Notes under the pieces: model-generated
What the model was told of the DNA's origin: nothing
Seen by the model: only the letters and a program-made list of their open reading frames with translations
Database searches by the model: none
Shown here: in pieces, positions 5,700 to 31,039 of the stretch
How the letters are laid out: every line of letters begins with the position of its first letter
How positions within the stretch are numbered: the stretch's first letter is position 1
Origin: Rhizobiales bacterium dw_265
GTDB taxonomy: Bacteria; Pseudomonadota; Alphaproteobacteria; Micropepsales; Micropepsaceae
Assembly (NCBI GenBank): GCA_018449595.1
Contig: JAAVUU010000004.1
Coordinates: forward strand, 1 to 64,000
Direction: 5' to 3'
Length of the DNA: 64,000 nt
Position numbers and translations under genes: made by a program

Positions 5700-6465
5700 T
5701 TATTTCGCTGCGTTGCCAAAGGCGCCGCTTGCCGCAGTTCGATATCCAACGCCAATAAGAGCGGCCGTTCTGGGGTCTAGCCCATAAGGCTTGTCTGGCA
5801 TGTAATTGCTGGAAAAATATTTGGCAAACGTCCCAGCTATGGAAAGCGTATCTTCTTCCAAAAACTGCCCGGTTTGCTGCATGTACACACCGACATTGAA
5901 GTTCGAAACATCCCTGAATTGCGGGAGTTGGTTAAGGCCGGTGACATAGTTGCCGCTTCTCTGATAGTCGAAGGCCAACCTGGCCCACCGCACCATTTAT
6001 TGAGCCTATGAACTGAGGTAGCGCGGCTTGTTGGACATCTGGATCGGGGGAAGCGAGCATCTGGAGATATAGGCTTCCAGCATCCCTGCCGGCGGCAGCA
6101 ACCGGACTTAAGTCCGCTGTCGGTGAAACGAGATAGCCCGTTTTCGAATATGGGTTGGCCACCATTTTGCCGTCCGGCAAAGTGACATAGGACTCGCCTT
6201 GCTTGAGCTTGACGTTTGTGGTTTGCGCGTCCGTCGCGGTTGCCCCCTCACTCCTGGCGTTGGCTGCGATACGAGTTGCGCCGCCCACATACGTCCACTG
6301 CCCGCCATCGCGGTTGCCCGCCGGCACACGCGGCTGGCTGGGATTGTATTTCAGCGCCAGCTTGAGCAGCGCCCACTCCATCTGGATCGCAGCCAGATCA
6401 GCACGGAGCGACGCGGCGGCGCGCGGCACACCGCGCGGTGTCTCGGAAAACACGAAGCGGCTCAT
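5700..6465 (-). pseudogene. Frameshifted polymorphic toxin F (Ntox44-like C-terminus)
   Basis: ATG 6465 has AGAAGGAAG 8 nt upstream. The first 55 residues carry the shared module of this array (RADLAAIQMEWALLKLALKY then QPRVPAGNRDGGQWT). That frame closes at 5932. A second frame with toxin-like content runs from about 5996 to TAA 5700, with FDYQRSGNY, DVSNFNVGVYMQQTG, LSIAGTFAKY and YGLDPRTAALIGVGY. These resemble the NF-x-G, AG and G-D/L-D-P elements of Ntox44-type toxins. A one-base shift near 5975-6000 joins the frames. It could be a real inactivation or a sequencing error. The Ntox44 assignment is tentative. Confidence 0.65.
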
Positions 6466-6519
6466 GACAGAACTTCCTTCTGCAGATGCTTTGCGCGGTC
6501 GGCAGTAGACCGTTGGGTC

Positions 6520-6596
6520 GCGCAAGGCCCGTGGTATGCCCCTCCCCATAGGGCCCCAGGCAACAAGTGGAGCCCGCGTCGCAAGACGCGGGCTCC
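6520..6596. repeat. 77-bp intergenic repeat, copy 2
   Basis: Same core as copy 1, ending in the hairpin at 6569-6596. It lies between the immunity-type gene at 6698-6958 and toxin F. It is the centre of a longer block of near-identity (about 6290-6670) shared with about 7555-7941. That block also contains the ribosome site, start codon and first ~55 codons of the downstream toxin. The hairpin's T-rich side faces the plus strand. Confidence 0.85.
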
Positions 6597-6697
6597 TGTC
6601 ATTTTGGGCGCACGCACGATCCACTGCGCTGCAAGTGACAGCTTGACACGATGCCGCCAACCTCGATCAGTCAGAAAACCCCTTTATAAATCCGGCC

Positions 6698-6958
6698 CTA
6701 CACGTCTTTTCGTGGAGAAAAGAGCAAAGGCAACATTACGACGAACCCACAGACGATCACGATGCCAAATGTCGGAATGAATGTCGTCAGAAAAATCAAC
6801 GCGCAGTAAGCCAAATCAACGTGCCCCGCGCCATCGAACATTTCGCCTTGCGTGTTATTCGCGAACCGCATGTACAGATGCAGCGCGCCCGCGCCCGCGC
6901 CTAGGAACAGAGCCAATATGGCAATACCAACTGCCAGCATTTTTGCACGTGTTTTCAT
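6698..6958 (-). CDS. Two-helix membrane immunity-type protein for toxin E
   Basis: 86 aa. ATG 6958 overlaps the toxin E stop as ATGA; an in-frame ATG at 6964 also exists. Two long hydrophobic segments (MLAVGIAILALFLGAGAGAL and ALIFLTTFIPTFGIVIVCGF) place it in the inner membrane with a short polar loop between. Four-base overlap with a toxin-type gene and lack of any enzyme motif make an immunity function likely. Membrane location would suit protection against a peptidoglycan-directed toxin. This is inference from position. Confidence 0.62.
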   Translation of the reverse strand: MKTRAKMLAVGIAILALFLGAGAGALHLYMRFANNTQGEMFDGAGHVDLAYCALIFLTTFIPTFGIVIVCGFVVMLPLLFSPRKDV

Positions 6959-7737
6959 TGCCAAGGCTTTTCTTTGTATACCGCCGCGATGCGCGCGCCA
7001 TAGTCGGACACCTTGGTTGCGTCCAGGGCGTTATAGAGCGTGCCCACGATAGCTACATCAGGCGCCGATAGGTTCGCTTCGATGCCTTTCAGTATTTTTG
7101 TCCCCGCAAGAATATTGGTGAAAGGATTACTCAAGTCTTCTCGCGTACCCAATTCGGCCCAACGGCTCGCATAAATATTCATTGGCAGGATTGTTTTGCT
7201 CAGACCGACGCTATCGAGAAGATCACCTGCCCCAAAATAATGACCTTGTGTTGTTTCGACATACATAATTGATCTTATCAGATCGGGATCCACATTTTCC
7301 TGTTCGGCGGCAAACAATATCCCGTCGTTGTAAGAACCAACCAGGGATTTTGAAGGATCAGCATACCATGGCGCATTCGGATTGGCATTGGGATTGGGGG
7401 CTACATAGAAATCTCCCCCACCGCCCTGCAAAACAAGTGCTCTGCGAGCCTTGTCTCGTCCGGGGGCCGACAACCCGAGCGTCGCGTCCCGTGATTTTGG
7501 CGCGGCATCCGTCACGACAGCACCCGGCATGTTATTGGCAGCCACCCGCGCCCAAGCCGTATCGGTCCACTGGCCGCCGTCGCGGTTGCCCGCTGGCACG
7601 CGCGGCTGGTCCGGGCAGTATTTCAGCGCCAGCTTGAGTAGCGCCCACTCCATCTGGATCGCAGCCAGATCAGCACGGAGCGGCACGGCGGCGCGCAACG
7701 CTTCGCGCGGTGTCTCGAAAAAGACGAAGCGGCTCAT
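6955..7737 (-). CDS. Polymorphic toxin E with lysozyme/lytic-transglycosylase-like C-terminus
   Basis: 260 aa from ATG 7737 with AGAAGGAAG 8 nt upstream. Residues 1-60 are the array's shared module, ending QPRVPAGNRDGGQWT. A linker rich in Ala/Asn/Pro follows (PNPNANPNAPWY). Residues about 140-255 have lysozyme-like order: AAEQENVDPDLIRSIMYVET with a probable catalytic Glu, PMNIYASRW, and NPFTNILAGTKILKGI. There is no signal peptide, so export must use another route such as lysis or particle loading. It is coupled to a two-helix membrane protein. An endolysin role for the adjacent lysis genes is an alternative. Confidence 0.65.
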   Translation of the reverse strand: MSRFVFFETPREALRAAVPLRADLAAIQMEWALLKLALKYCPDQPRVPAGNRDGGQWTDTAWARVAANNMPGAVVTDAAPKSRDATLGLSAPGRDKARRALVLQGGGGDFYVAPNPNANPNAPWYADPSKSLVGSYNDGILFAAEQENVDPDLIRSIMYVETTQGHYFGAGDLLDSVGLSKTILPMNIYASRWAELGTREDLSNPFTNILAGTKILKGIEANLSAPDVAIVGTLYNALDATKVSDYGARIAAVYKEKPWQ

Positions 7738-7791
7738 GACAGAACTTCCTTCTGCAGATGCTTTGGCCGGTCGGCAGTAGACCATTGGGTA

Positions 7792-7867
7792 GCGCAAGGC
7801 CCGTGGCATGCCCCTCCCCATGGGGCCCAGGCAACAAGTGGAGCCCGCGTCGCAAGACGCGGGCTCC
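7792..7867. repeat. 77-bp intergenic repeat, copy 3
   Basis: One base shorter than copies 1 and 2 (loss in a run of C), with the hairpin at 7840-7867. It lies between the CdiI-like gene (7952-8257) and toxin E. With copy 2 it shares about 385 bp that begins shortly after the preceding immunity gene's stop and ends inside the toxin's shared N-terminal module. Confidence 0.85.
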
Positions 7868-7951
7868 TTTCGTTTTGGGCGCACGCACAATCCATTGCGC
7901 TGCAAGTGACAGCTTGAACATAGCGCCGCCAATCTCGATCAGATCGCGCCG

Positions 7952-8257
7952 CTAAGGCACCGTCGAATTCCTTACCTGTCCAGACTGCGCCAGATCGCGA
8001 ACCATGGCCAGAAAGACGGGAATTTGCTTGGCATCCGCAAGCCAGAATTCCGCGCCGGATTCTCCCCATTGCTTTTCGAGATCGGCAAGATCATAGGGCT
8101 GAGACAAAAGTGCATCCAGATGGGATGCCAGCGCCTGCGAACGCGCCCGGCCAAGCCCAATCAGGATTTCACCAAATCCTTGCATGGCATCGCCCTCCAG
8201 AAAGAAATCCTGGTGAAGCTGGCCGAGAAACCGGTTCAGTTCGTCAGAAAAATTCAT
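7952..8257 (-). CDS. Orphan CdiI-type immunity-like protein
   Basis: 101 aa from ATG 8257. The pattern ELNRFLGQLHQDFFLEGD, then a helix with LASHLDALLSQPYDLADL and a C-terminal FLAMVRDLAQ, resembles small contact-dependent-inhibition immunity proteins: a short helical protein with an HQD-type motif in helix 1. No toxin lies directly upstream, since the preceding gene is a broken immunity paralogue. It is best read as an orphan immunity gene. The family assignment is from pattern memory and should be tested with a profile search. Confidence 0.6.
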   Translation of the reverse strand: MNFSDELNRFLGQLHQDFFLEGDAMQGFGEILIGLGRARSQALASHLDALLSQPYDLADLEKQWGESGAEFWLADAKQIPVFLAMVRDLAQSGQVRNSTVP

Positions 8258-8282
8258 CGCTTATTCGTCCAAGAAGTTGCAA

Positions 8283-8478
8283 TTACTCTGGCTTGCGCAA
8301 CGCATCCTGGATGATATCCAGCAAAGCCAGCGCTTCCTGGCGTGTCGCCCCGACCCGCGTGAAATTCACCCTCTCCCATCAACTCGACGGCGTCATTGAT
8401 GCAGTTATTTATGATTCCAAGATCGTTGTCCGATATCTCAACGGAATAAAGGTCGGGGCCTTTCTTTTCGATCTTCAT
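8283..8478 (-). pseudogene. Frameshifted immunity paralogue C
   Basis: The frame opens at ATG 8478 with MKIEKKGPDLYSVEISDNDL and IINNCINDAVELM, closely matching immunity genes at 9919-10116 and 9007-9198. Around 8358 the frame must change. In the alternative frame the rest reads TRVGATRQEALALLDIIQ and ends at TAA 8283, again matching the paralogues. Without the shift the frame continues to 8254 with unrelated sequence. No toxin is paired with it. It is a broken orphan copy, or carries a sequencing error. Confidence 0.75.
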
Positions 8479-8517
8479 GTCATCGTCTCTTCTGCGCGTC
8501 TAAGTACCTTTGACCTG

Positions 8518-8883
8518 TTACTGGTAGATTACGGAAATACCTTCGATTTCCTTAGACCTGCGGAATATCTTTTCCGATGTTGGAACGACGATACGCATGC
8601 GATACCCGGACAGCCACACGACATTCAGGGCGGGCTTTCCGGAAATGCCGAAAAATGGCGGATAATTATCAAACGAGAAGCTCCGCCTCGACGGCACAAC
8701 GCTAACCTGTGTATTGGAATCGACTGTCGCGCTACAGTCCCGGTGAAAGACAATCAGGGCTTTGTCATTGTCCGGCGAAGGCACAACATGCTCGATGAGC
8801 GTATCGCAAGGATCGAACCGAGCAAAAAAATAGACCGCCATCGCACCAACCGCAATGAAAGCAAATCCAACCCAGCGGCGCAT
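8518..8883 (-). CDS. DUF5412-like membrane-anchored protein (probable immunity)
   Basis: 121 aa from ATG 8883 with GGTGGAG about 10 nt upstream. One N-terminal membrane segment (VGFAFIAVGAMAVYFFA) is followed by an extracytoplasmic domain: PSPDNDKALIVFHRDCSATV, STQVSVVP-like strands, and VVWLSGYRMRIVVPTSEKIF. This strand/Cys pattern resembles DUF5412 proteins. It directly follows a fragment of an Ntox44-type toxin 3' end (8884-9006), so it may be the cognate immunity gene. That pairing is inference from position. Confidence 0.6.
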   Translation of the reverse strand: MRRWVGFAFIAVGAMAVYFFARFDPCDTLIEHVVPSPDNDKALIVFHRDCSATVDSNTQVSVVPSRRSFSFDNYPPFFGISGKPALNVVWLSGYRMRIVVPTSEKIFRRSKEIEGISVIYQ

Positions 8884-9006
8884 GCGCGCCAATCTCCACC
8901 GTATTTTGTGCGATAGTATTGTATTCCGCGCATAATCCAATCCTGATCTTTAGGATCGTCTCCATATGCTGGCGCGGATGAGGTGGCGCAGCCTCCTTGC
9001 TTTGAA
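8884..9006 (-). pseudogene. Remnant C-terminus of an Ntox44-type toxin
   Basis: Between the stop of immunity B (9007) and the DUF5412-like start, one frame reads SAPAYGDDPKDQDWIMRGIQ followed by YYRTKYGGDW. The G-D-D-P-x-D-Q ... I-x-x-G-x-x-Y-Y pattern is characteristic of the end of Ntox44-type toxin domains. No start codon or upstream toxin sequence remains; the rest was presumably replaced when the A/B module inserted. The frame runs on into the next gene without a proper stop. Confidence 0.5.
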
Positions 9007-9198
9007 TCAGGATCGCAGGCCGGAAAGAATATCGTCCAACAGGCCTCGCACCTCCGCCCTTGTAGCGCCCACACGCGTACTCATCTCATCGTCACCCATG
9101 TCATTATTGAGATTCACAATACAGTCTTTGAGAATTCGCAACTCCTCGCCAGTGAGGTCAATTGAGAATACATCTTTGGATTTCCGGTTGACTTTCAT
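9007..9198 (-). CDS. Small immunity-type protein B
   Basis: 63 aa. ATG 9198 overlaps the restored stop of toxin B as ATGA, indicating translational coupling. It is paralogous to A (9919-10116) and C (8283-8478): an N-terminal strand (VFSIDLTGEELRILKDCI) and a C-terminal helix containing STRVGATRAEVRGLLDDI. No signal peptide or membrane segment. Probably a cytoplasmic inhibitor of toxin B, which is itself frameshifted. Confidence 0.6.
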   Translation of the reverse strand: MKVNRKSKDVFSIDLTGEELRILKDCIVNLNNDMGDDEMSTRVGATRAEVRGLLDDILSGLRS

Positions 9199-9846
9199 TG
9201 ACGCCTCTTCACATCATCCACGTATCGTTCCCCATCCACAGGCCGGAAAGCTGTGCCACCATCACGGTCGGCGGGATTCAGAAAAACAACCGTATTAGAT
9301 AACCCATCGTAGAATATCGTCCTATTGCGTGGCAAAATCTTCCACACGCGAGGGATTATTCAATGCGCCGCTCACGATTGAATTCAATTGTGCCTGAGAT
9401 GGAAACCCGAACTCCGCCGCATGATCCTGAAGCGCATGACCGCTGGATATTCGCGCCGCAACGCGCCCTTTGGCGGCCTCTACCTCGCTCTTATACGCAT
9501 TGACGATCTCTTGATCGGGTGGAGTTCCATCGGAAACATATGACAGGTAGGGATTGTCCGGCTCCAATCTACGGAGCGTCCTGACGCTATTGTTGACGGA
9601 TTCCTGCCGCAGTTCGGCCATCGGATTTTCGATGATCGAACGTCGGGGTGTTTCCTCGTCCTCCGCGCCGCCCGCCACCCGCACCCAGGCCGCATCCGTC
9701 CATTGCCCGCCATCGGGATTTCCGGCCGGCACGCGCGGCTGGCTTGGGTTGTACTTCCACGCCAGCTTCATCAGTGCCCATTCCATCTGGATGGCCGCCA
9801 AGTCGGCGCGCAGGCGCGATGTCTCGCAGCGAACGAACCGGCTCAC
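9195..9846 (-). pseudogene. Frameshifted polymorphic toxin B
   Basis: GTG 9846 overlaps a duplicated spanin tail stop as GTGA. The product begins MSRFVRCETSRLRADLAAIQ and carries QPRVPAGNPDGGQWT, then follows toxin A closely (MAELRQESVNNSVRTLRRLE). The frame stops at TAG near 9322. Removing one base there lets it continue RTIFYDGLSNTVVFLNPADR and DGGTAFRPVDGERY, aligning with toxin A, to TGA 9195, which overlaps the immunity B start. A recent one-base insertion, or a sequencing error, is the simplest reading. Confidence 0.78.
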
Positions 9847-9905
9847 GGCGTCACCGCCTGTTCCAGATGCGTCAGCGGGTCGGCATTCTCGCGCCCGGCG
9901 CCGAG
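9843..9905 (-). pseudogene. Duplicated 3' end of the spanin gene
   Basis: The bases before toxin B encode GRENADPLTHLEQAVTP and a stop, nearly identical to the C-terminus of the spanin-like gene (ARENADQLTHLEQAVTP) that precedes toxin A. This marks the left boundary of a tandem duplication unit of spanin tail, toxin and immunity gene. It has no coding role apart from providing the GTGA overlap at the toxin B start. Confidence 0.8.
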
Positions 9906-9918
9906 CGCCACCGGCTCA

Positions 9919-10116
9919 TCATTTCCGCCCATACAGTGCGCCGTGGATGGCATCCAGCAAAGCCTGCGCTTCTTGCGGGGTGGCACCTACGCGAGAGGGG
10001 AATTCCTCGGGACTGATCAGGTCGAGTGCGTCGTTGATACAATTATTGATGATTCTCAAATCATCCCGTGCGATTTGGACGAAAAAAAATCCTGGCGCTT
10101 TTTCCTCAATCCTCAT
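9919..10116 (-). CDS. Small immunity-type protein A
   Basis: 65 aa from ATG 10116, one base after the toxin A stop (TGA C ATG), so coupled translation is likely. An N-terminal strand region (FFFVQIARDDLRIINNCIND) is followed by a helix with FPSRVGATPQEAQALLDAIH. It is paralogous to genes B and C in the same array. Small soluble proteins coupled to a toxin-type gene are normally immunity proteins; no experimental family assignment is claimed. Confidence 0.65.
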   Translation of the reverse strand: MRIEEKAPGFFFVQIARDDLRIINNCINDALDLISPEEFPSRVGATPQEAQALLDAIHGALYGRK

Positions 10117-10117
10117 G

Positions 10118-10768
10118 TCAATTTTCTCCCAGCCCATCGAAATATCTCTGGCTCGTTTTGAACATTGTTCCGCCGTCGGGGACAGCGGGATTGACAATAA
10201 CCAGAAATTTCCTGGCGGCATCGTAAAATCCGGTCCGTCCGCGCGCAAGGTCACGAACCTGAGTGAAAGGATCGCTAATCACCTGGTTGACGATCTCACC
10301 AAATTCCGCCCTACTCGAAGCACCAACTTCGATCGCATGAGCGTCGAATGCGTGCCCGGACGCGATCGCATTCGCCGCACGAAGTTGAGCGGCTGCAACT
10401 TCATCGCTATAGGTATCAACGATGGCTTGGCTTGGCGCCTCTCCATCGGAAACATATGTCAGATAGGGATTGTCCGGCTCCAACCTGCGCAGGGTTCGGA
10501 CGCTGTTATTGAAGGATTCCTGCCGCAGCTCGGCCATGGGATCTTCAATGATCGAGCGCCTGGACGTTTCTTCGTCTTCCGCGCCGCCCGCAACTCGAAT
10601 CCCGCCCGCATCGGTCCATTGCCCGCCGGCTGGATTTCCGGCAGGTACGCGCGGCTGATCTGGGCGGTACTTCCACGCCAGCTTCATCAGCGCCCATTGC
10701 ATCTGGATCGCCGCGAGATCGGCGCGCAGCCGCACATACGGCGCTTCGAAAGACACAGGCCGCCTCAT
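10118..10768 (-). CDS. Polymorphic toxin A (putative RNase-type C-terminus)
   Basis: 216 aa. ATG 10768 overlaps the spanin-like stop as ATGA, placing it in the lysis operon. Residues about 1-50 carry the shared module (RLRADLAAIQMQWALMKLAW, QPRVPAGNPAGGQWT). A helical middle region follows. The C-terminus (RGRTGFYDAARKFLVIVNPA then PDGGTMFKTSQRYFDG) has the short R-T-x-F-Y-D ... G-G-T-x-F pattern seen in small RNase-like toxins of the BECR fold; this is tentative. No signal peptide. It is coupled to immunity A. Confidence 0.65.
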   Translation of the reverse strand: MRRPVSFEAPYVRLRADLAAIQMQWALMKLAWKYRPDQPRVPAGNPAGGQWTDAGGIRVAGGAEDEETSRRSIIEDPMAELRQESFNNSVRTLRRLEPDNPYLTYVSDGEAPSQAIVDTYSDEVAAAQLRAANAIASGHAFDAHAIEVGASSRAEFGEIVNQVISDPFTQVRDLARGRTGFYDAARKFLVIVNPAVPDGGTMFKTSQRYFDGLGEN

Positions 10769-16939: not shown

Positions 16940-17362
16940 TTATGTCCTGAAAAGATAAGCCAGGCGCGCACGCCACCAGGGCGAGAAATCTTCCTCGCGC
17001 ACCCGGCGGTTCTGGCGGGCATGAATCAAAGTCAGCACGCCACCTTGTTCGGCGATGATGCCGCAATGTTTTGCGGGGCTGCCCCGCGCCATGCGGAACA
17101 GCGCCACGTCACCCGGCGCGACGGACTTCATATCCACCGCCGTCAGGTGCCGCGCCAGGGCATCGCGCAAGCTCTCCTCGCCGGTCGCCTCCGCCCAGTC
17201 GGCGGAATAGGGCGGCACCGCTTCGGGCTCGTCGCCATGCAGTTCGCGCCACACCCCGCGCAACAATCCCAGGCAGTCGCAGCCCGCGCCCCTGGTGCTG
17301 GCCTGGTGCTGGTAGGGCGTGCCGATCCAGCCGCGCGCTGCTGTTATAATGTCAGTTGCCAT
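16940..17362 (-). CDS. GTA gp14-like NlpC/P60 peptidase
   Basis: 140 aa from ATG 17362, overlapping the gp13 stop by 11 nt. The NlpC/P60 signature is present: catalytic Cys in GCDCLGLLRGVW and His in SPAKHCGIIAE, with the DVALFRM strand before it. It is a cell-wall peptidase of the tail tip that helps penetrate peptidoglycan on entry. Length and position between gp13 and gp15 match the GTA family exactly. Confidence 0.9.
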   Translation of the reverse strand: MATDIITAARGWIGTPYQHQASTRGAGCDCLGLLRGVWRELHGDEPEAVPPYSADWAEATGEESLRDALARHLTAVDMKSVAPGDVALFRMARGSPAKHCGIIAEQGGVLTLIHARQNRRVREEDFSPWWRARLAYLFRT

Positions 17363-18233
17363 AGCGGCTTTGCCCATCCAGCACCTGGCCCGGCGCGGGC
17401 GCCGCCGTCACCGCGTCATTGCCCGGCATATAGGGAAAGCCGCGAAAATTGACCGCATTGCCGAAGCGGTCGCGGCAGGTGGCGAACTGCTTGTCGCAAC
17501 CCGGCGTGACCGTGAAGGCATCGCCCGCCGTCACCGCTTCGCTCATCGCCTGCCACAGCTCAAGACTGACGATACTGCCGGCAACACCATGACGCTTGAC
17601 CTCCATCGCCCGGCCCGCATTGCCGCCCGTGGTAAAGGTCAGCTTGCCGCCGGTCAGGTCGCCGGAGGCGAAACTGTCCAGCCCGCTGACGGTGAAGCGC
17701 CGCGCATCGGCCGCCGTTACTACCGCGCCGACCGTGGGCGTGATCGCCAAGGTGCAGCGCGCATCGCCCAGGTCGGCATCGCACAGATGCCCGAAGGCGC
17801 GCCCGGTTGGCTGGTTCAGCGCCTGGGCCAACCCGCGAATCTCGGCCTGGAAGGCGGAGCCGGAACGGGTGACCTCGCCCAGGGTGCCGGCCCGCATCAG
17901 CACGCGTTGCGACGGCGTGGTCCAGTTGACGCGCCGGATCTCGATAGCGGCATCGTCATACAGCCCGGCGGCAAGATCCTGCTCGTTCAGGGTCGCCGCC
18001 GACAGCGCTCCCGCCAGGGTCAGATTGTCCACCGCCAGGCCCAGGGAAGACTGTACCTCGCTGGCGGTGAAGCCGGATGCCGCGCCATAGGTCACGTCAT
18101 CGAAGGCCAGCGGCTGGTCATGATCGGTAAAGCCCTGCACCACGCCGTCGCGGCGGGTGAGCTTCCAGCACCAGCACAAGGTGGTGGCGCCGCCGTCCAG
18201 GTGATCCTGCATGCCGGAAGGGAGTGTTTTCAT
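17352..18233 (-). CDS. GTA gp13-like DUF2163 baseplate protein
   Basis: 293 aa. The N-terminal half fits DUF2163 (TTLCWCWKLTRRDGVVQGFT, VQSSLGLAVDNLTLAGAL). The C-terminal half has Cys-containing signatures of this family (FGHLCDADLGDARCTL, FTVTPGCDKQFATCRDRFGN), used in related GTA particles to bind an iron-sulfur cluster. It forms part of the distal tail hub with gp12 and gp15. Its start lies only 4 bp from a 126-bp inserted repeat (18238-18363), so its ribosome-binding region may be partly supplied by that element. Confidence 0.85.
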   Translation of the reverse strand: MKTLPSGMQDHLDGGATTLCWCWKLTRRDGVVQGFTDHDQPLAFDDVTYGAASGFTASEVQSSLGLAVDNLTLAGALSAATLNEQDLAAGLYDDAAIEIRRVNWTTPSQRVLMRAGTLGEVTRSGSAFQAEIRGLAQALNQPTGRAFGHLCDADLGDARCTLAITPTVGAVVTAADARRFTVSGLDSFASGDLTGGKLTFTTGGNAGRAMEVKRHGVAGSIVSLELWQAMSEAVTAGDAFTVTPGCDKQFATCRDRFGNAVNFRGFPYMPGNDAVTAAPAPGQVLDGQSRYGN

Positions 18234-18237
18234 GTTT

Positions 18238-18363
18238 TGTCATGGCCCGCCGGAGAGCGGGCCACCCAGTTGGGATTTACATGATCTTGAAGAACGAAAC
18301 TGAGCCGCTTCTGAAACAGTGACGCAGTATCACCTGGGTGGCCCGCATTTGCGGGCCATGACA
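18238..18363. mobile_element. 126-bp hairpin-ended non-autonomous element (MITE-like)
   Basis: The left end begins TGTCATGGCCCGC with a hairpin closing GCGGGCCACCCAG. The right end is its inverted copy, finishing TGGCCCGCATTTGCGGGCCA and then TGACA. The same termini bound the 372-bp GIY-YIG element at 30668-31039. The internal ~60 bp is unrelated and non-coding. It occupies the whole gap between gp12 and gp13 in an otherwise tightly packed operon. It is probably a deletion derivative or a REPIN-type repeat mobilised in trans. Confidence 0.78.
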
Positions 18364-18364
18364 G

Positions 18365-18988
18365 CTAGAGCAGGATTTCCACCAGCGGGATGGAGGTCAT
18401 CTCGCCGGCGGCAAAGCTGGCAAGATTGACCGACAGGGAATCGGTGTCGAAACGCACGGCGCAGTCGAAGACGAAACCGGCGGTGACGGTCGCGCCATTG
18501 GCGGGCGGGGCGGTGAAAGTTACCTGCCCGGTGGTGGCGTCACAGACAAAGCCAGTGGTCTCCACGCCGCCCACCGCGACCCGTACACTGCCGTCCACCG
18601 GCTTGGGAATCGTCCGCGTCCAGCTGCCCGCGCCCGAGGCATAGGTCTTGGCCAGCTGGAAGACGGTGGCATGGCCGTCGCCGGTGCCGATCCCCTGGTC
18701 CAGCGGCGACGGCGTGGCGGCGGGGGCGCAGGACTGACAGTCGGTGAAATCCTTGAAGCGGAAGCCGTACAGCTGCCCGCGCCGGGCCTCGAAAAATGCA
18801 ATCACCGTGGACAGGTCGGCCAGGGTGCGCACGCCCGAGCCGACATCGAACGACCGCCGCGACCCCGCCCACACCGCATTGCGCTCCTCATAGCCGGAGC
18901 CCAGGGTGACGATCTCGGTCTTGCGCACCGGCCCGCCTGTCGAGTGAAAGGCGATGGCCAGGGGAAAACGGATTTCGTGGAAGTTCAT
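18365..18988 (-). CDS. GTA gp12-like DUF2460 tail protein
   Basis: 207 aa, with ATG 18988 overlapping the gp11 stop as ATGA. DUF2460 features include the opening FHEIRFPLAIAFHSTGGPVR, EERNAVWAGSRRSFDVGSGV and RGQLYGFRFKDFTD. It is a distal tail protein linking the tail tube to the baseplate. Length equals the usual size of the family. A 126-bp element separates it from gp13. Confidence 0.9.
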   Translation of the reverse strand: MNFHEIRFPLAIAFHSTGGPVRKTEIVTLGSGYEERNAVWAGSRRSFDVGSGVRTLADLSTVIAFFEARRGQLYGFRFKDFTDCQSCAPAATPSPLDQGIGTGDGHATVFQLAKTYASGAGSWTRTIPKPVDGSVRVAVGGVETTGFVCDATTGQVTFTAPPANGATVTAGFVFDCAVRFDTDSLSVNLASFAAGEMTSIPLVEILL

Positions 18989-19527
18989 AGATTCCGCTGC
19001 CCCTGCGCGATGGCCCGCGCCAGCATGGCCGCGACCTGGCTTCTGGATTTCTGGAACGAGGCCGCATCCGGTGTGGAGATGTTCACCGTCACGCCCGCGC
19101 CGCGCGTCGCCGACAACGCCGCATTGGAGGTGATGTCGCCGTTGCCCGACGGCGTGAACAGTTCCGGCCCGTTCTCGCCCACCAGGTAACTGCCGCCCGG
19201 CGCCACCGGCCCGCCCACCGCGCGCGCGCCCGAGACCGGCAGCAGCGAGCCGACGGCCGAGGTCACCAGGCTTTCGATAGGCTTGACGATGAACTGGCTG
19301 GCGGAGATGCGGTCGAAATCGGCCAGCACCGAGGCGGTCAGTTGCGAGATCGAATCCCGCCCCGACAGAGCGGCGCGGGCGATGGTGGTGGACACCGAAT
19401 TGAAGCTGCGGGTCACCGCGCTCTCGATGCTCGCCATGCTGCTGGCCACCGGGCCGCTGGCGAAATTGTTCAGCGCCTGGCCGGCGGCGGCCAGCGGATC
19501 ACTTGTGCTGCTTCCGGGATCAGACAT
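18985..19527 (-). CDS. GTA gp11-like short tail tape-measure protein
   Basis: 180 aa, with ATG 19527 overlapping the gp10.1 frame by 8 nt. It is Ala/Ser-rich and helical, with repeats such as VASSMASIESAVTRSFNSVS and a C-terminal GGPVAPGGSYLVGENGPELF motif common to phage tape-measure proteins. The short length predicts a short tail, as in Rhodobacter GTA. It ends in a basic helix. Confidence 0.82.
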   Translation of the reverse strand: MSDPGSSTSDPLAAAGQALNNFASGPVASSMASIESAVTRSFNSVSTTIARAALSGRDSISQLTASVLADFDRISASQFIVKPIESLVTSAVGSLLPVSGARAVGGPVAPGGSYLVGENGPELFTPSGNGDITSNAALSATRGAGVTVNISTPDAASFQKSRSQVAAMLARAIAQGQRNL

Positions 19528-30661: not shown

Positions 30662-30667
30662 AAACTT

Positions 30668-31039
30668 GTCATGGCCCGCAAAAGCGGGCCAGCCAGGTGC
30701 CACAAATGCCCGGCGTCTATTATGTCTACATTCTTGCCAGCAAACGAAACGGCACGCTTTATATCGGCGTGACCAATAATCTGGCGCGCCGGGTGTGGGA
30801 GCATCGGGAAGGACTGGCCGAAGGTTTCACCAAGACTTATGGTGTAAAGCACCTTGTCCATTACGAGATATTTGAAGACATCAACGCCGCCATTCATCGT
30901 GAGGATCGCTTGAAGAAATGGAAACGCCAGTGGAAGATCGATCTGATCCAGTCGCGTAATCTTCTGCGGGACGATCTATATGAAACTCTCAACAGTTGAG
31001 CGGACCCAACTGGGTGGCCCGCTTTTGCGGGCCATGACA
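30668..31039. mobile_element. 372-bp hairpin-ended element carrying a GIY-YIG nuclease gene
   Basis: The left end (30668-30692) and right end (31015-31039) are perfect 25-bp inverted repeats starting TGTCATGGCCCGC, each folding into a TGGCCCGC/GCGGGCCA hairpin with an AAAA or TTTT loop. The inner edges (GCCAGGTG and CAACTGGG) are also related. Apart from the ends, the element holds only the 97-aa nuclease gene. It splits an ABC transporter operon between receptor and ATPase. The 126-bp element at 18238-18363 has the same ends. Confidence 0.8.
30706..30999 (+). CDS. GIY-YIG nuclease (YhbQ/UPF0213-type)
   Basis: 97 aa from ATG 30706. The GIY-YIG core is visible as VYYVYILASKRNGTLYIGVT, then NNLARRVWEHREG with the conserved Arg, and a Glu in INAAIHREDRLKKWKR. 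The ribosome site (CCAGGTG) is supplied by the inner edge of the left terminal repeat, so gene and repeat evolve as a unit. It may act on its own terminal hairpins as a single-strand nuclease; this is inference. Confidence 0.88.
   Translation: MPGVYYVYILASKRNGTLYIGVTNNLARRVWEHREGLAEGFTKTYGVKHLVHYEIFEDINAAIHREDRLKKWKRQWKIDLIQSRNLLRDDLYETLNS

Follow-up and report, generated by a model that had tools for sequence, protein, structure and literature searches.

The non-coding sequence between the GTA genes gp12 and gp13 in the stretch of DNA analysed here (the window, 64,000 nucleotides of Rhizobiales bacterium dw_265) is, judging from its sequence, a REPIN-like dimer of CGTC/TGTC-tagged REPs that fits the CGTC REP family closely. 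Its hairpin ends are shared with a second element in the window that carries a GIY-YIG nuclease gene (Table 1). We think it probable that the dimer is a non-autonomous element which inserted after the gp12 stop codon without target duplication, and that its dispersal was started in trans by the GIY-YIG nuclease. The naming of gp12 and gp13 as GTA genes is backed by their Pfam matches.

Table 1. Features of the window discussed in the text. The strand of the dimer and its parts follows GIY-YIG polarity; GTA transcription runs the same way.
Feature	Position	Strand	Remarks
REPIN-like dimer of TGTC-tagged REPs	18238..18363	-	126 bp
5' REP	18334..18363	-	TGTC tag, AT + GGCCCGC stem, AAAT loop, ACCCAG tail
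3' REP, inverted	18238..18269	-	6-nt loop, ATGACA end
Variable interior, non-coding	18270..18333	-	From aligned copies
GTA gp12 (DUF2460)	18365..18988	-	PF09343
GTA gp13	17352..18233	-	PF09931 + PF09356; 4 bp between element and start codon
Element with the same ends carrying the GIY-YIG gene	30667..31039	+	373 bp; between ABC substrate-binding gene and ATPase gene
GIY-YIG nuclease, 97 aa, presumed cognate enzyme	30706..30999	+	PF01541

The dimer is bounded by perfect terminal inverted repeats of 13 bp (18238-18250/18351-18363), and an inner pair of arms with 94% complementarity (18257-18272/18331-18346) extends this outer match. Either end also folds on its own, as GGCCCGC-loop-GCGGGCC. As single-stranded DNA the element folds into an interrupted stem of 13+13 bp with a z of -6.6, with 0 of 200 shuffles equally stable, and the RNA of the region is likewise a very stable hairpin (z -6.2). 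An Rfam search of the window returned no family at or above the gathering score. A Rho-independent terminator, i.e., a GC-rich stem followed by a T run, was considered and rejected, as 0 intrinsic-terminator or sigma-70 patterns were found in 17300-19100. The initial annotation had described the sequence as a relative of the GIY-YIG element, and the 13-bp end and the hairpin stem are indeed identical in the two, with differences in the loops and the inner flank; the 372 bp given there for the GIY-YIG element is corrected to 373 bp. The element boundary had been placed 4 bp from the gp13 start, which agrees with the gp13 ATG at 18233 on the minus strand, and on the opposite side a gap of 1 bp separates the element from the gp12 stop codon (gp12 end 18365). 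Elsewhere in the window, positions 5932-10768 of the minus strand hold several paralogous small ORFs with a common N-terminal stretch resembling WALxKLAxKYxPxQPRVPAGNxDGGQWT.

In the portions of Di Nocera et al. 2013 (PMC3733652) drawn on here, CGTC-tagged REPs are described as having a tag that is often TGTC, a stem of 8-9 bp beginning with AT, a loop of 4-5 nt and CCA tails, as forming mostly head-to-head dimers, and as occurring mostly in alphaproteobacteria near the stop codons of convergent or tandem genes. The window element is like them in its tag, its dimeric form and its placement, and broadly so in its AT-starting stem, its short loop and its tail. An unpaired TGTC tag lies at both of its outer ends, the stem and a CCCA tail are present, and the head-to-head arrangement near the stop codons of convergent or tandem genes recurs across 31 dimers of this genome. 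It departs from those same descriptions in two details: AC takes the place of AT beside the tail, so that AT faces AC and one pair is lost, and one of its two loops has 6 nt and the other 4 nt. A further difference from the CGTC REPs as presented in those portions is that here a GIY-YIG gene bears the same ends.

The window element is also like the REPINs in the parts of Bertels and Rainey 2011 (PMC3116915) used here, in which two inverted REPs and a spacer fold as one long hairpin and a non-autonomous population has a partner gene located near the same repeats. Those partners are RAYTs, which are Y1/HUH tyrosine transposases, and the tag is GTAG, whereas here the putative partner is a GIY-YIG nuclease and the tag is TGTC. 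The inverted REPs folding as one hairpin, the extragenic location and the multicopy state of REPINs were all found, but a cognate RAYT flanked by the same REP was not found in this genome. The overall anatomy and the single Y1 gene of this genome (L352, G000:C15:127700-129400) would suit a true REPIN moved by a RAYT, but the 25-bp terminal repeat that belongs to this gene bears no relation to the TGTC REPs, and the 1.7 kb around the gene contain no TGTCATGGCCCGC-like site with up to 3 mismatches. Y1 transposases occur in 18 of 69 genomes and bear no relation to the number of end copies (p 0.80). With the tag differing as well, we consider a true REPIN very unlikely and disfavour a RAYT as the mobiliser.

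The element is one of a large population. When the 13-mer end was searched for with up to 1 mismatch in the 4.2-Mb genome, 113+124 = 237 matches were obtained, against 2+4 = 6 for a reversed control pattern, and thus the family of ends is not due to chance; exact occurrences of the 13-base end number 132. We inspected 38 inverted pairs, one of which is the GIY-YIG element; 7 measure 101-103 bp, 26 measure 124-132 bp and 4 measure 146-150 bp, and in most the two ends differ in loop length, 4 nt against 6 nt, which makes them heterodimers. The kinship to the GIY-YIG element proposed initially therefore stands, but not the picture of a one-off relative. An alignment of 25 copies shows almost no variation at the ends and drift in the middle, but it is biased towards conserved ends by the retrieval of copies via their ends. 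Covariation was absent (0 of 28 pairs with a double change in the 25 copies) because the stems are nearly invariant, and this neither supports nor refutes the hairpin fold. For the 31 dimers with usable context (7 of the 38 were left out for insufficient flank, and genes were called by an unvalidated codon-usage script), 19 lie between convergent and 12 between tandem genes, 0 between divergent genes and 0 inside genes, often within 15 bp of stop codons.

None of the 38 dimers is flanked by a target duplication of 3 bp or more. One flank is biased towards CCCAAT and the opposite flank towards ATTGGG, e.g., a T adjoins the element in 26 of the 38. A classical MITE moved by a DDE transposase would account for the terminal inverted repeats, the high copy number and the short non-coding interior, but the lack of duplications, the hairpin nature of the tips and the GIY-YIG gene borne by the coding relative with the same ends make such an element hardly credible. 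Several 101-bp dimers (L027, L029; e.g., G000:C1:1155529-1155699) are situated within a larger repeated unit that has its own terminal repeats, TAGGGTTCGGACTCAATTG / CAATTGCGTACAGACCCTA, and REP dimers may thus ride inside a conventional TIR element. When the joined flanks of the dimer within this unit were used to search the same genome, none of the 20 matches listed extended across the join, and hence no dimer-free copy was present among them.

The initial annotation had proposed an insertion into the GTA operon, set against an ancestral terminator that all relatives would carry alike. We compared the gp12-gp13 junction across the 27 of 69 same-genus genomes in which gp13 was found, of which 25 could be judged (G067 lies at a contig edge and the 5' end of G056 was not matched; the paralogous rows G045b, G045c and G044b were dropped). 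The gp12 stop and gp13 start overlap in 11 of the 25 (10 by script, G042 by eye), and the sequence at 18238-18363 is found at this junction in none of the other 24. G008 and G071 carry different TGTC-tagged hairpin dimers there, and G059 and G043 carry single hairpins of the general TGTC-REP type. Other palindromes occupy the junction in G070, G061, G073, G074, G021 and G049, and gaps of 9, 27 and 258 nt are found in G010, G053 and G058, respectively. Because of the overlapping junctions, the absence of the sequence from the other 24 genomes and the two different TGTC dimers, the window element is on this comparison an insertion and not ancestral; a sequence common to all relatives was not observed.

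On the gp13 tree, scoring presence or absence alone requires two changes for a TGTC dimer and three for any TGTC element, and the rows nearest to this genome are G016, with an overlap, and G008, with a different dimer; several separate insertions at this one junction are therefore probable. Less probably, a single insertion took place in an ancestor, and a different dimer then took its place in G008 while G016 lost it. Since palindromes of another kind are also found at gp12-gp13, the site may attract or tolerate hairpins generally. Another palindromic family of the genus, of the CCTCCCCC...GGGGAGG kind, recurs at the 3' ends of genes, the gp12-gp13 junction included (L196, L197, L201, L207, L346, L355 and L366, at gp12-gp13 and downstream of the ABC gene).

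Whatever its origin, the element could be kept between gp12 and gp13 as a host-selected RNA or DNA element, i.e., an mRNA 3'-end stabiliser, an attenuator or an expression tuner. This would agree with the stability of its RNA hairpin, with the strong preference of the family for 3' ends and convergent genes, as for CGTC REPs in the relevant portions of PMC3733652, and with the palindromes of several kinds seen by eye at the junction in at least 7 other relatives. Nevertheless, no intrinsic-terminator-like site was found around the junction, 11 of the 25 relatives do without a gap, and such a role alone cannot explain a family of 237 end copies genome-wide, and we consider host selection as the explanation somewhat unlikely.

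The gene presumed to serve the dimers encodes a small protein in which Y8, G21, R29, H33, E66 and N85 are invariant or nearly so, residues which we take to have catalytic roles. Its structure model (mean pLDDT 88) best matches the UPF0213 structure 1zg2, followed by Slx1 GIY-YIG structures. The UPF0213 GIY-YIG proteins (PDB 1zg2, 1ywl), described merely as UPF0213 or hypothetical, resemble it in fold and size and share 28-30% identity with it in the fold alignment. In 2025 Chenal and colleagues reportedly described the Ssn family, GIY-YIG nucleases that cut single strands site-specifically and whose targets are repeated in Neisseria, in a study said to deal with nuclease specificity and transformation. 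The protein of the partner gene has the GIY-YIG fold and conserved residues expected of this family, and, as is reported for the Ssn nucleases, it is small and is associated with a sequence that recurs in the genome. The Ssn work may already cover the nuclease-repeat link.

GIY-YIG genes of this type are commonly bracketed by inverted repeats. From 67 GIY-YIG matches in 24 of 41 genomes, 9 weak or partial ones were dropped, and inverted repeats (score of at least 13, within 110 bp) bracket 44 of the remaining 58 genes, a score that none of 174 shuffles but 295 of 3306 mismatched pairs attained; the true end pair is the best of its own row for just 20 of the 58, because many elements share end types. 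Among named records, 52 of the best 80 of at least 584 confirmed loci are bracketed and 28 score below 13, with 0 of 80 for control intervals; judging by record titles, Patescibacteria, Omnitrophota, Bacteroidota and delta-, gamma- and betaproteobacteria are represented among the 52. Local hairpins are also frequent at the ends, 152 of 200 of which have an exact 6-mer complement, where shuffles expect 15.0 and a direct-repeat control gave 6. The more alike the proteins, the more alike the stems (Mantel r 0.25, p 0.001), mean stem identity being 0.77-0.89 above 65% protein identity and 0.47-0.49 at 45-65%; of the 207 proteins, 14 that contained stops or were shorter than 75 aa were left out. 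This co-variation need not imply recognition, as ends and gene are physically joined and linkage alone could produce it. The stems of the two ends agree in at least 6 of 8 bases in 100 of 193 genes, but the best pair was picked for each gene and 1958 of 9900 mismatched pairs agree as well, and for these reasons we give this agreement less weight than the bracketing and the local-hairpin counts.

The strongest single case for a link between the dimers and the GIY-YIG gene is in G008, where one end of the gp12-gp13 dimer is identical in 55 of 55 bases to the 3' end of one of the GIY-YIG elements that this genome itself carries (G008:C262:8192-8464). Several hairpin stems are represented among its 8-9 GIY-YIG matches, which makes G008 a good test case for stem specificity. 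Among the matches listed, no GIY-YIG-REP link was found in the portions of PMC3733652, PMC3116915, PMC8266576, PMC12306157 and PMC6006769 that were searched. New here are the REPIN-like anatomy, the empty and filled sites and the lack of target duplications.

The initial annotation had held that the terminal repeats are mobile in trans, and the copy numbers bear on this in two directions. If a GIY-YIG gene is counted as matching when one or both of its sides show this end type, the median number of end copies is 29 in the 23 genomes that have such a gene and 4 in the 46 that do not (69 genomes; p 7.7e-5 after subtracting the gene's own ends, with kinship ignored); five fragment hits (G055:C218, two of G053:C37, G056:C32 and G022:C40) were dropped beforehand. 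For genomes at least 90% complete the medians are 29 (18 with a matching gene) and 6 (33 without). But when relatedness is taken into account the association loses its significance, both on the gp13 tree, with 2 independent pairs on well-supported branches, and on the ABC-protein tree (partial proteins of G011, G050 and G084 left out), on which 6 independent pairs on well-supported branches gave about 2.5 in the expected direction, 0.2 in the opposite one and 3.3 with no difference. The effect thus leans the expected way and falls short of significance. Moreover, G007, G071, G060 and G006 hold 39, 47, 22 and 17 end copies with no GIY-YIG gene detected.

Such genomes, rich in end copies, would be expected if the GIY-YIG gene were a homing-type passenger in pre-existing REP dimers and another agent spread the REPs. 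The repeats beside the gene are reversed in at least 7 named records when examined by eye (L121, L137, L140, L146, L159, L183 and L189), and GIY-YIG elements recur at one ABC junction, both of which would suit a passenger. The ABC substrate-binding and ATPase genes are directly adjacent in 25 of 50 genomes (this one included), the GIY-YIG element lies between them in six of the 50 (G000, G043, G008, G044, G059 and G061) and, by eye, in G074, and in the rest either some other gene follows or the gap is a different one; the junction state changes six times on the ABC-protein tree. On the other hand, the repeat-gene association extends over several phyla with stems tracking the protein, and Y1 transposases, the sole alternative enzyme class tested, are unrelated to copy number, and we regard the passenger explanation as unlikely. 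The GIY-YIG elements of one and the same end type at this junction are scattered over seven genomes (window 30667-31039, L326, L329, L362, L364, L372 and L373), and G002 (L370) has a TGTC REP there with no recognised GIY-YIG motif, as if internally deleted.

Mobilisation of the dimers in trans by the GIY-YIG nuclease, our preferred reading, is plausible and, we think, likely. By analogy with REPs and RAYTs, the hairpins would be exposed as single strands during replication or transcription, and the nuclease would recognise a folded hairpin beside the TGTC tag and nick there. The nick in trans would start the dispersal of the dimer, and host repair or replication would complete excision and insertion, leaving no target duplication. 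GIY-YIG nucleases are known as hydrolases and not as strand-transferases, and the insertion step is therefore unaccounted for by the nuclease model. Copies would persist chiefly at the 3' ends of genes, places in which they would be nearly harmless or else useful as hairpins at the end of the mRNA.

In relatives with an overlapping junction, a GGAGGT-like or GGAGAT-like site is often seen by eye at the end of gp12. The corresponding stretch lies more than 130 nt upstream here, and 4 nt separate the gp13 start codon from the end of a very stable stem, so gp13 is expected to lose translational coupling and to have weaker or independent initiation. By removing both the coupling and the upstream ribosome-binding site, the insertion is predicted to have lowered or uncoupled gp13 expression.

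In the portions of PMC3733652 drawn on here, the CGTC REPs, a large palindromic family mostly in alphaproteobacteria, are apparently without a dedicated transposase, and what spreads them was stated in 2013 as an open question. We tentatively suggest that CGTC/TGTC dimers could be a second, independent REPIN-like system, present in many phyla and set in motion by small GIY-YIG nucleases that work on folded single strands, of which system the window element would be a product that rewires a GTA operon. If this is true, the dispersal enzyme would be neither DDE nor HUH. A nuclease gene with the same hairpin ends, together with a clean empty and filled site in a conserved operon, makes the spread of CGTC REPs directly testable, and the gp12-gp13 junction, with its overlaps, several dimers and single hairpins, is a natural series for gauging the effects of REPs on GTA expression.
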